From: a virus
Virus record (IMG/VR): IMGVR_UViG_3300037493_001343
Coordinates: 1 to 61,581 of that record
DNA length: 61,581 bases
Direction: 5' to 3' (one strand)
The translations under genes were made by a program, and so were the position numbers. This document shows, piece after piece, positions 21,814-31,622 of the stretch. Position 1 is the stretch's first letter, and every line of letters starts with the position of its first letter. A model generated the notes under the pieces. It was not told the DNA's origin. It saw nothing but the letters and a program-made list of their open reading frames with translations, and searched no databases.

Positions 21814-21930
21814 ATGAAAAAAATTCTATTAGCAATTGCAGTAATCATTACAATATACCTTCTAGGTAATGATATCGACAAACAATTAGCATCAGACGGC
21901 AATCAATCACCTGTAACTTTAACTAAATAA
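21814..21930 (+). CDS. Small membrane peptide (38 aa), paralogue of 22680 gene
   Basis: Hydrophobic residues 3-17 (ILLAIAVIITIYLLG) then a hydrophilic tail DKQLASDGNQSPV. The same DKQLASDxNQxPV tail follows the membrane segment of the protein at 22680-22895, so the two are probably duplicates. Likely an inner-membrane protein of unknown role. Confidence 0.6.
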   Translation: MKKILLAIAVIITIYLLGNDIDKQLASDGNQSPVTLTK

Positions 21931-21955
21931 ATTAACTTTAAAAATCTAAAAAACT

Positions 21956-22312
21956 ATGAAACAATTTACAATTAACATCGGCCTACACAATAATCCTTTT
22001 GCTGTTATCAGGGAAGACGGCAAGTATTCTATGGTGCAAAAAAACATACAGCGCCTGTTGAATCTAGCATTTGAACATTCATCTGATTTTTATCGAATAG
22101 AAACAGGCAAATGGGACGGAGCAGATGAACCAACATTTGTCGGATATGTAGAAGCAGACGAGTACACCATAGACGCTAAGGTGCAATTACTTTGTGATAT
22201 AATGACTCAGCAATGTATACCATACCACTCAGAAGAGCAAAGCAACCTAGTTTATCAAACAGGTTGGAACGAATCTAAATTTGATTTTAACCCTAATTAC
22301 TTTATCAAATAA
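21956..22312 (+). CDS. Early protein, unknown (118 aa)
   Basis: Soluble alpha/beta protein, acidic, with repeated short strands (FAVIREDGKYSMVQ, EPTFVGYVEADEY). Good AAAATCTAAAAAACTATG-type leader. No family recognised. Confidence 0.65.
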   Translation: MKQFTINIGLHNNPFAVIREDGKYSMVQKNIQRLLNLAFEHSSDFYRIETGKWDGADEPTFVGYVEADEYTIDAKVQLLCDIMTQQCIPYHSEEQSNLVYQTGWNESKFDFNPNYFIK

Positions 22313-26992: not shown

Positions 26993-27313
26993 ATGAAAAA
27001 GAAAACTAGAGCCGACTACTACAAGGAGAACCCTGAGTCATATGCTAAGAAAAAGAAATACGATTCTAAGCTAGGCAAGAGGGAAGACCTTAAGGACAAA
27101 CGAGTTGAATTAAATACCTATAACCGAAAGAAAGGTGTATACGGCAATGGCGATGGCTTAGATGCAGTGCATAAGGGCAAGAAGATTGTAGGCTACGCTA
27201 AGGCTTCCAAGAACAGAGGCGATACCAACGATTCAGCAGGAGACAAACGAGCAAGAGGAAAGAAAAAGATGATAGTGCAAAAGAAAAGCCCAGTGAAGCT
27301 CAAAAAAAAATAA
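26993..27313 (+). CDS. Conserved small basic phage protein (106 aa)
   Basis: Lys/Arg-rich: TRADYYKENPESYAKKKKY, RKKGVYGNGDGLDAVHKGKK and NRGDTNDSAGDKRARGKKK, a pattern I know from a family of small proteins in diverse tailed phages, function unknown. Likely nucleic-acid-binding. Last gene before the non-coding RNA region; followed by long A-tracts. Confidence 0.7.
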   Translation: MKKKTRADYYKENPESYAKKKKYDSKLGKREDLKDKRVELNTYNRKKGVYGNGDGLDAVHKGKKIVGYAKASKNRGDTNDSAGDKRARGKKKMIVQKKSPVKLKKK

Positions 27314-27344
27314 AAAAAAAGAGAAAAGTTCATATAACATTGAT

Positions 27345-27352
27345 TATCTTTG
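27345..27352 (+). promoter_or_regulatory. Host-type -7 element before the tRNA-like element
   Basis: TATCTTTG matches TAnnTTTG exactly; the -33 region is weak (AAAGTTC). The expected start site, about seven bases on, coincides with the 5' end of the tRNA-like element at 27359. Confidence 0.55.
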
Positions 27353-27358
27353 TTATAT

Positions 27359-27449
27359 AGTCAAGTGGCTGAATGGTGAGGCAGTTAACTCAATAAAACA
27401 TTAGAAAAGAGGATTAATAATGATGCAGGTTCAAATCCTGTCTTGACTG
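27359..27449 (+). tRNA. tRNA-like element with enlarged anticodon domain (isotype unassigned)
   Basis: AGTCAAG (27359-27365) pairs fully with CTTGACT (27443-27449). A four-pair D stem GCTG/CAGT has a loop containing GG, and a five-pair T arm GCAGG-TTCAAAT-CCTGT is canonical. The interval between D and T arms is 39 bases instead of about 23. No 5-bp stem with a 7-base loop fits; alternatives are TTAACTC with GAG..TTAA around a 17-base loop, or CATTA/TAATG. The ends are thus tRNA while the anticodon part is atypical: a type II, intron-bearing or degenerate tRNA. No CCA is encoded directly. Confidence 0.6.
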
Positions 27450-27450
27450 C

Positions 27451-27525
27451 AACCAAGTTCATAGTTGGTTTAAGGTTTAAAAGTGAAATGCCCTCTCTGA
27501 AAAGGGAGGGTAATTTTACCAACTA
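27451..27525 (+). ncRNA. Structured hairpin domain downstream of tRNA-like element
   Basis: TAGTTGGT (27462-27469) pairs with ACCAACTA (27518-27525), enclosing a CCCTCTC/GGGAGGG hairpin (27491-27510). AACCAA at 27451-27456 can compete for TTGGTT. No U-run, so it is probably part of a longer transcript or a processing structure. Confidence 0.5.
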
Positions 27526-27527
27526 GA

Positions 27528-27539
27528 GCGTATTATATT
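27528..27539 (+). promoter_or_regulatory. Late promoter motif before the candidate ncRNA
   Basis: GCGTATTATATT, one mismatch from the late consensus. No gene follows for over 400 bases, so it would drive an untranslated RNA. Confidence 0.65.
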
Positions 27540-27544
27540 GATAG

Positions 27545-27765
27545 ATTATTGATGGGACATATCAGTAGTTAATATAAAGAAATATTGAATGGCTTTTTGC
27601 TTGAAGGAGATGTCCCCTCCGATAGCGATTAGCCATTCTTGTTTTTAGACCTATCGTCCTATATGGTCTCTAATCTTTGGGATACTCTCAGCACGAGTCG
27701 GCAGATGTTCGGTGTTTTAATAGAGTATTCTGTCCACTACACAAGGTGAGCATCTTGTCTTTTTC
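27545..27765 (+). ncRNA. Candidate pseudoknotted small RNA with own promoter and terminator
   Basis: Within about 220 bases: GGGACAT (27554-27560) pairs with ATGTCCC (27610-27616). GAATGGCT (27587-27594) pairs with AGCCATTC (27631-27638), crossing the first stem to form an H-type pseudoknot. CGATAG/CTATCG (27620-27625, 27651-27656) and GATACTCT/AGAGTATT (27681-27688, 27722-27729) add further stems. It starts after a late promoter motif and ends at an intrinsic terminator, with no reading frame over 60 codons. It does not match tmRNA, 6S or RNase P RNA by eye and is shorter than GOLLD or ROOL. Function unknown. Confidence 0.6.
27741..27765 (+). terminator. Intrinsic terminator of candidate ncRNA
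   Basis: ACAAGG / TCTTGT stem with a 6-base loop followed directly by CTTTTTC. Confidence 0.75.
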
Positions 27766-27985
27766 TAAATTTTTGACTAAAGGGGGGTAGTGATTCGCAG
27801 GTATTCGCCTTTCATAACACACACATCAATAAAATTTATAAGCCCCCTTGTCTCAAGCCACACAAAGACGCCTATCTATAACAACCCAACGAAACCTATC
27901 ATTGAATATGACGGCAATAAATAAATATAAAGATTTAACCAATAATAATATAACATTAATTAACTTTAACTAAAACTAAACAATT

Positions 27986-28363
27986 ATGAAAAAACAATTA
28001 ATTACTTTACTCTTGTTGCTTTCTAGCTATATTTCATATGGTCAGCAAGTAAATAGTTTCTGTTCTGTTGAAATTTGGAAATACAATGACTATACTGGTA
28101 AATTTTACCTTAGTAATACCACTACAAGTTATGGATATATGTTTACTAATGACGATGTAATTAAGATATATGTAGATGGTAAGTTGTATTTTGACTTTAA
28201 TAAAGTTGATTTAGAAATATATTCTGAAAAGGTAATTGAAGGAGTAAGCATTGTAACACTTAGAAGTAAAGTTGATAAAACATTATATATACAAGCTAAT
28301 AAATACTGGGTTGCAATAACAAAAGGAACTGATTATAAAATAATATTTAATACTTGCAAATAA
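27986..28363 (+). CDS. Secreted protein of unknown function (125 aa)
   Basis: Clear type I signal peptide (ITLLLLLSSYISYGQ, cleavage near residue 20) and a beta-rich mature domain with Tyr and Lys, one Cys near each end. Phage-encoded exported proteins of this size may modify the cell envelope or block superinfection. First gene after the RNA region. Confidence 0.65.
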   Translation: MKKQLITLLLLLSSYISYGQQVNSFCSVEIWKYNDYTGKFYLSNTTTSYGYMFTNDDVIKIYVDGKLYFDFNKVDLEIYSEKVIEGVSIVTLRSKVDKTLYIQANKYWVAITKGTDYKIIFNTCK

Positions 28364-30399: not shown

Positions 30400-30768
30400 A
30401 TGCAAAATTATTATCGTTCCGAAATGGATCCGAAGAACTACTCAGTTTGTGAAGATCAATTAATCCATTGTGAATGCTTAGTGCAAGACAATGACACACT
30501 TCTTATGGCTGAGCAGTTAGGCATAGATATGGATGGTAAGCTATGGGTAGACATTACATTCGATCCTTCTGAGATCAAGATGTTAATGGTTGGCTCTGTG
30601 TTGACTCCAGACAACCCAAAGAAGAAGGCAGTAGCACTAACCTTGGTTTACTTTAAAGGTGAGTCTATGATGGACTGCATTGAGATTAATATCCCATATT
30701 CAATTATGAACGCACTTTGGCACGATTCCAGATCTAAACCTACCCACGCAATTTACAAATTAAAATAA
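30400..30768 (+). CDS. Protein of unknown function preceding sigma factor (122 aa)
   Basis: Soluble alpha/beta protein (MLMVGSVLTPDNPKKKAVAL core). It is first in the operon with the sigma factor; its last base overlaps that gene's ATG, so the two are co-translated. A co-regulator of the sigma factor is possible but unproven. Confidence 0.6.
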   Translation: MQNYYRSEMDPKNYSVCEDQLIHCECLVQDNDTLLMAEQLGIDMDGKLWVDITFDPSEIKMLMVGSVLTPDNPKKKAVALTLVYFKGESMMDCIEINIPYSIMNALWHDSRSKPTHAIYKLK

Positions 30769-31622
30769 TGAGCTTCATTCAAAAACATTGGGAAGGGAAA
30801 CCTAAGTTCTCCTCGTCTATCCTTATTGACGATGAGTCCCTATACCGTATGCTAAACGAGAAAGAGTTCAGCAAGTCTAAGTTGGTTATATCCAACGATG
30901 ACTGCTTAAGAAACCTTTCAGAGTATAGACTTACAGGCGATGTTAAGTTCAGAAATAAAATAATAGATGGTAACCTTAGACTATTGCTATACCTAGCACT
31001 AAGATCATCGCAAGGCCAGTTCCCAGTATCTGACCTATTCCAAGAAGCCATCATTGGTTTCGCTGAAGGTATTGAAAAGTATGATGAGTTAAAAGCAAAT
31101 GGGGCTAAGGTGTCCTCATATGCTTATTACTTCGCAAGAAAGTATGTTCTGGCATATATAGAAAGAAATCAGTCAATTGTTTTCTTTACCAGAAAGCCAC
31201 TACGACTTAGGGCAAAAATCAAGAAGGGCCTCAAAGATGCGGTTAACGACCTCCAGATCGATGAGGCCTACATCCCTATAGAACTTATTGTAAATTCAAA
31301 GATGGAACGATCAGAGATGATAGGAGCCATAGAATTAAGCTATGATATTGTTAGCCTATCGGAAACACCAACCGATGGCGATGTATCCATAGGAGAAACC
31401 ATAGGAGACAGGTCTGAACAAGTAAGTGCACTAGATAATAAAGCCGATTTAATGGCTATCCTAGAAGGTTTAAATACTCAAGCAAAGAGAATGATTCTAG
31501 CTAAGTTTGAGGTCTCTGACGAGGATTACAAGGATGTTTGCGCATACTATAACTTAACTACAAAGCAAGGCGATGCCTACGTTTCAGAATTAATTTCGCA
31601 TTTAAGAAAAAATATTTTTTAA
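30768..31622 (+). CDS. RNA polymerase sigma factor, sigma-70 region 2/4 type
   Basis: 284 residues. Region 2 lies at about 60-135: NLRLLLYLALRSS, then DLFQEAIIGFAEGIEKYD (core-polymerase-binding helix), then SSYAYYFARKYVLAYIERN. The C-terminus (about 228-282) has region 4-like helices ending VSELISHLRK. It would redirect host core polymerase to phage promoters. The 12-base GCGTATTATATA motif before late genes on both strands is the best candidate target. Region 1.1 is absent and region 3 is short. Expressed with a 122-residue partner from a host-type promoter. Confidence 0.75.
   Translation: MSFIQKHWEGKPKFSSSILIDDESLYRMLNEKEFSKSKLVISNDDCLRNLSEYRLTGDVKFRNKIIDGNLRLLLYLALRSSQGQFPVSDLFQEAIIGFAEGIEKYDELKANGAKVSSYAYYFARKYVLAYIERNQSIVFFTRKPLRLRAKIKKGLKDAVNDLQIDEAYIPIELIVNSKMERSEMIGAIELSYDIVSLSETPTDGDVSIGETIGDRSEQVSALDNKADLMAILEGLNTQAKRMILAKFEVSDEDYKDVCAYYNLTTKQGDAYVSELISHLRKNIF

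Follow-up and report, generated by a model that had tools for sequence, protein, structure and literature searches.

We found that a 61,581-nt stretch of the IMG/VR virus record IMGVR_UViG_3300037493_001343 (the window; its coordinates refer to the plus strand throughout) carries a structured RNA element at 27544-27646 (RNA-A), delimited by covariation, folding energy and relatives, which on our best reading of the sequences belongs to a family of ~90-120-nt leader RNAs of replication-initiation genes in Bacteroidota phages. Judged by sequence comparison, the element is real and covarying and has a clear gene context, and the family is apparently undescribed. Across the phages compared, the RNA starts within ~10-30 nt of a promoter motif, and in the relatives an initiator (HTH_36/O-like Rep or DUF6291) comes next, directly or after one small gene. 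We consider it probable (about 0.6) that these RNAs act as leaders or attenuators of phage replication-initiation genes through intramolecular kissing loops, with the window copy an orphan.

The element in the window lies in a gene-free interval and consists of two hairpins. Hairpin P1, identified from the sequence, a descriptor scan and the fold, has a 10-pair stem (27544-27553 with 27561-27570) and a 7-nt loop L1, GGGACAU (GGGACAT in the DNA; 27554-27560), which forms the 5' strand of the kissing helix. It is followed by an A/U-rich linker (27571-27586; 3' end AAAGAAAUAUU), whose A-rich then U-rich character, counted with a regular expression, recurs in 31 of 66 elements. Hairpin 2 (27587-27638), supported by sequence, fold and the covariation of both its stems, comprises a perfectly paired outer stem P2 (27587-27594, GAATGGCT, with 27631-27638, AGCCATTC), an inner stem P3 seen in the fold (GGAG/CTCC; 27606-27609 with 27617-27620) and the 7-nt apical loop of P3, L2, AUGUCCC (ATGTCCC in the DNA; 27610-27616), the 3' strand of the kissing helix. 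Directly 3' of P2 stands a U-run, TTGTTTTT (27639-27646), resembling the RNA end of an intrinsic terminator, and hairpin 2 looks like a candidate intrinsic terminator as well; in the listed relatives, a U-run after P2 was a requirement of the scan. L1 and L2 pair perfectly over 7 bp and cross the equally perfect P2 helix, so that both crossing helices of the preliminary description are exact in the sequence. Its H-type pseudoknot stands as far as the crossing is concerned, but the geometry is that of two hairpins with kissing 7-nt loops, which describes the element better than a bare pseudoknot.

The preliminary description had drawn the RNA from 27528 to 27765, and this span holds for one part only. 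The 105-nt core of RNA-A folds well beyond dinucleotide shuffles (z = −5.6), whereas the 3' half, about 27640-27765 (RNA-B), has a folding energy in the range of its shuffles (z = −1.0) and was therefore dropped from the element. RNA-B is present in only one near-identical relative, L005, and the stretch at 27767-27870, considered as a further structured RNA, also folds like shuffles. When the 238-nt stretch was shuffled 2000 times, a bare crossing of a 7-bp with an 8-bp helix arose in 6 cases, and each shuffled 61-kb window gave several, as would be expected if the element were a chance pseudoknot beside an ordinary terminator. Because similar bare crossings arise in shuffled windows, the single sequence is weak proof, and the case for the element rests on the folding energy of RNA-A and on its relatives.

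Upon examining the nearest relatives, we observed that the RNA of L005 is 97% identical to that of the window, against about 84% in the flanking genes, and that, as in the window, no initiator gene follows it; at the base of P1, a G-U pair in the window is G-C in L005. A further relative, L003, has the same promoter motif and other letters in the same architecture, and its gene order runs from the RNA through a homing-endonuclease-like gene (L003 4781-5185), which sits between the kissing-loop RNA and the initiator, to the replication-initiation gene, whose product matches phrog_19658 (E = 4.8e-19). Two more phages (L252 and L253) were found by searching with the L003 initiator, and in both the RNA ends a few nucleotides before the initiator start codon; the RNA stands directly before rep in L252, L253, L255, L256, L258 and L262. 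Within this clade the kissing helix occurs as GGGACAU/AUGUCCC, GUUGCAG/CUGCAAC and GUCGCAG/CUGCGAC, with 7 of 7 pairs in five phages, and L003, L252 and L253 keep the helix with letters other than those of the window. Loops of different alleles are mismatched, with only 2-4 consecutive pairs between them. Among more distant initiator relatives, whose hairpins were aligned by eye from the sequences, the helix reads GGACGAG/CUCGUCC, GUCGGAU/AUCCGAC, AUGCGAC/GUCGCAU or GUUGCAG/CUGCAAC, with P3 stems of 6-7 bp, TAnnTTTG-like promoters and a position right before the ATG. The upstream gene also has distant homologues (L006-L011); their context is another one, and the descriptor scan detected no such RNA there. 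Additionally, 27300-28000 had no blastn match among 50,697 phage records, an exact 19-mer scan of IMG/VR gave none, and a pattern of the promoter plus the TGGCTTTT type returned 17 stretches, with only the two already known among them.

The window copy differs in what follows it. The feature of an initiator gene directly downstream is absent, and 27857-27878 holds a remnant of a replication-initiation gene, recognised by identity to L003 and consisting of the last codons only (..PHKDAYL stop in L003), without start or body. The region 27857-28000 is 95.8% identical to L003 5682-5825, the 3' end of the initiator gene, and tblastn with the initiator product found no rep copy anywhere in the window. 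From this alignment we read that the initiator gene is lost in the window's lineage and that the RNA is now a stand-alone orphan, which either has kept a role in trans or is a relic. The noncoding stretch at 27640-27856, 97% identical to L005, occupies the initiator gene's place; it holds a long-range GGGGG/CCCCC pairing and a second terminator-like hairpin, CAAGGTGAGCATCTTG then TCTTTTT (27744-27763), is not more structured than chance, and shares the 10-mer GTATTCTGTC, within RNA-B, with the element that follows the tRNA in the elemo phages. That second hairpin, read from the sequence, is a plausible terminator outside the RNA family; its G-U pair in the window is A-U in L005.

The retention of the RNA in the window and L005 without an initiator, at 97% against about 84% in the flanks, together with the endonuclease gene that parts it from rep in L003, would suit a small RNA that stands alone and acts in trans on phage or host targets, for which the initiator-adjacent site is a favoured niche and the terminator just ends the RNA. 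This explanation is distinctly unlikely in our view, given that the RNA is strongly linked to the start codons of initiators in dozens of phages, that the complementarity lies within one molecule and that there is no conserved single-stranded seed across clades.

Beyond this clade, genes of another initiator-type family, DUF6291, have the same architecture in front of them in dozens of phages of Bacteroidota, isolated phages of Flavobacterium and Cellulophaga among them. We collected 160 DUF6291 loci from two scans of IMG/VR and 10 from one scan of GTDB genomes, and selected 37 by a TAnnTTTG motif followed by a long terminator hairpin, leaving the loops unused to avoid circularity. The 5' segment is complementary to the interior of the hairpin over at least 7 nt in 32 of these 37 loci (36 at 6 nt or more), against 90 of 1332 (7%) at the same 7-nt threshold when partners were swapped, and in the larger set with the second scan in 57 of 66 against 316 of 4290 swapped; these counts are not independent, as many loci are related, and the swapped control contains shared alleles. 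Counted without repeats, the complementary segments of the larger set number 40, and those few that consist of A/U only are probably due to chance. A score-based scan upstream of DUF6291 reached a score of at least 19 in 18 of 91 loci versus 1 of 273 shuffled ones, and about half of the DUF6291 loci had no element under the criteria used. In most elements the terminator stem ends 7-39 nt 5' of the DUF6291 or rep start. Under the same criterion, control stretches taken irrespective of DUF6291 (the window and five phage stretches) gave 7 matches, three of them real elements, two of which belong to Cellulophaga phage phi13:2, one standing before its DUF6291 gene. A second and different kissing-loop candidate in phi13:2 (L062 23470-23570) precedes a gene of 149 aa whose product weakly matches a HigB toxin and is 99% conserved in four related Cellulophaga phages.

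The elemo phages of Flavobacterium, whose replication gene is DUF6291, carry the element 3' of a tRNA and 5' of the replication operon, in three alleles within otherwise conserved surroundings. In the elemoA phages (L065, L066 and L067) the RNA alleles differ while the flanks are nearly identical, and the differences look as if a cassette had been exchanged. The stretch from tRNA to RNA (L061 10330-10494, minus strand; L065-L067) is ~100% conserved, with both neighbours variable.

Next, we evaluated covariation in an alignment of 11 close marine elements, in which 94.9% of cells are paired over the whole structure and 12 of 23 pairs are changed on both sides. The covariation score was 0.425, compared with 0.177 (sd 0.024) in a shuffled control that ignores relatedness and 0.02-0.09 in a slid control that keeps it. 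The kissing helix is paired in all 11 elements without a broken cell, three of its seven pairs being doubly changed, and doubly changed pairs number six in P2 and three in P3. Compensatory stem changes in homologues had been set beforehand as the test of the preliminary description, and they are present in the kissing helix, P2 and P3. A chance pseudoknot beside an ordinary terminator is refuted by this covariation across phages, and with the swapped-loop control and the folding z-score of −5.6 also against it, we regard it as the most improbable of the explanations. Diversifying selection on the loops, an idea taken from the elemoA alleles, is not claimed here, as the marine loops are no more variable than P2. 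The marine alignment (A5, columns 45-50 and 67-71) additionally contains a conserved internal loop, AGUA/GAAA, beside P3, which recalls the bulged-G (loop E) motif.

With respect to known families, Rfam 15 yielded only a tRNA at the gathering threshold over the whole window, one tRNA only across 20 loci with relatives, and nothing relevant at low threshold in 12 loci. Low-threshold hits in 27300-28000 to Prevotella-2 (21.4 bits) and 6A (15.8 bits) are at chance level, far below the gathering scores, and a group I intron, an HDV-like ribozyme, tmRNA and GOLLD/ROOL were set aside on helix order and size, with no model matched. In the part of the literature covered by our search, there was no described equivalent of a phage leader RNA of this kind and no mention of DUF6291; the main text of the 2010 and 2021 structured-RNA surveys has no kissing-loop phage leader, an unnamed supplementary entry being possible. 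The compensatory changes and the absence of an Rfam 15 match support the earlier proposal that the element, lying behind a late-type promoter, is a phage structured RNA of a new class outside the known families.

The promoter motif proposed before the RNA is recurrent in the window. It reads GAGCGTATTATATT (27526-27539), the RNA begins directly 3' of it (the promoter being given by motif only), and it has 20 matches in the window with at most 3 mismatches versus 9.2 expected. With up to 2 mismatches allowed, six further copies of the form AAGCGTATTATATA each lie 15-22 nt 5' of an ATG; the genes behind them include that of the portal and others not in the replication region, and from these genes we infer the label 'late'. 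The window phage also encodes a sigma-like factor (30768-31622). This late-type motif stands 5' of the RNA in the window, L003 and L005, and the complementary loops are reminiscent of the way in which phi29 pRNA molecules pair through their loops; both features would fit a packaging or late-infection RNA. Most relatives, however, use the host-type promoter TAnnTTTG (others the same phage motif) and precede early or replication genes, not packaging genes, and such a role is very improbable. The functions initially suggested, namely packaging, late regulation or host interference, are not supported; the relatives place the RNA as a 5' leader of replication-initiation genes, often under TAnnTTTG.

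For the leader or attenuator that we favour, the most economical idea is that compact folding of the leader would set the chance of read-through. As RNA polymerase leaves the promoter, L1 would kiss L2, and the terminator stem would close on the compact kissing fold; most transcripts would then end as a stable ~100-nt RNA, with the initiator made only from read-through. The leader would limit initiator synthesis, and the kissing helix would matter for termination. Since the kissing partner is the terminator loop and not its stem, both pairings can coexist, unlike in a classic terminator/antiterminator switch.

Since the two complementary loops sit together on every molecule, pairing between copies is also possible. 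Released RNA could engage leaders still being transcribed, in which case initiator output would depend on genome number and self-antisense copy control or immunity might result. A more speculative proposal, which we rate as rather unlikely, is that a widespread and hitherto undescribed kind of sense-strand switch, built on a self-complementary kissing-loop terminator, controls Bacteroidota phage initiators, the terminated RNA being its own antisense, the alleles being compatibility groups of co-infecting phages and the window allele being a trans-acting exclusion RNA. An antisense TAnnTTTG within 150 nt was found in 4 of 66 elements versus 7 of 66 at control distance, and this lack of enrichment excludes the usual plasmid-type antisense control and leaves the trans model without independent support.

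The main rival to the attenuator is a protein-bound autoregulatory leader, in which the initiator or another phage protein would bind the kissing fold and repress its own mRNA, as T4 gp32 does. The leader lies directly before the start codon, and its architecture is kept while the letters change, as shape recognition would predict; against this, the same leader architecture occurs with HTH_36 Rep and with DUF6291, initiator families that are unrelated, the RNA is retained without the gene in the window, and the search for an RNA-binding domain returned only a weak L11-like match (E = 0.03), so that autoregulation seems unlikely to us.

Plasmids and a handful of model phages offer the classic examples of leader pseudoknots and of copy control by RNA. 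In ColE1 copy control, kissing loops form between RNA I and RNA II, two RNAs of opposite strands. The likeness lies in fully complementary 7-nt hairpin loops, linkage to replication and letters that vary between relatives, while here a single sense RNA carries both loops, the search for an antisense promoter was negative, and the target is the leader of an initiator mRNA, where ColE1 has a primer. In the IncI-alpha/IncB RepZ leader pseudoknot, a short pairing activates translation and is opposed by antisense RNA; there, as here, an initiator mRNA has a leader loop that pairs with sequence further downstream, close to the gene start, but in the present element the pairing partner is an intrinsic-terminator loop. 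The T4 gene 32 leader is an H-type pseudoknot with a known protein ligand and no terminator; it too is a pseudoknot in a phage replication-gene leader, and it differs in lacking the kissing hairpins and the terminator, both of which are present here. The CI RNA of P4 and the c4 RNA of P1/P7 (Rfam RF01695; PMC2864571) are also sense phage RNAs with self-complementary stretches in the leaders of replication or antirepressor genes, acting by premature termination or translation block; the present element has no sequence or model match to them, the structures differ, and P4 termination is Rho-dependent. Finally, the type III toxin-antitoxin systems (ToxI and its kin) have the same order of promoter, pseudoknotted RNA, intrinsic terminator and gene. 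ToxI, however, is a tandem repeat accompanied by a toxin endoribonuclease, and a type III antitoxin RNA does not fit here, the element being a single unit followed by DUF6291, HTH_36 Rep or no such gene.

The family appears to guard replication genes across many Bacteroidota phages, which are major in the sea, soil and gut and whose gene control is little known. The element is compact, and its loops are freely recodable while matched, which makes swap mutants feasible in cultured phages such as Cellulophaga phi13:2 and the Flavobacterium elemo phages. Should the RNA work in trans, one type of superinfection incompatibility would have an explanation, and Bacteroidota would gain a set of orthogonal RNA parts.

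Upstream of the RNA in the window lies a tRNA-like gene (27359-27449; 45 bits with Infernal, missed by ARAGORN), with an anticodon arm ~22 nt too long, a host-type promoter TATCTTTG at its 5' side and a terminator of its own (27491-27519). The corresponding tRNA slot near the RNA holds a similar odd one in L005, a normal tRNA-Ile in L003 and a tRNA-Ala or tRNA-Met in the elemo phages, and a tRNA beside the kissing-loop RNA recurs in L156 too. Furthermore, an AT-rich repeat resembling a 5' leader, 83% identical between 27955-27990 and 21927-21960, stands before two different genes.
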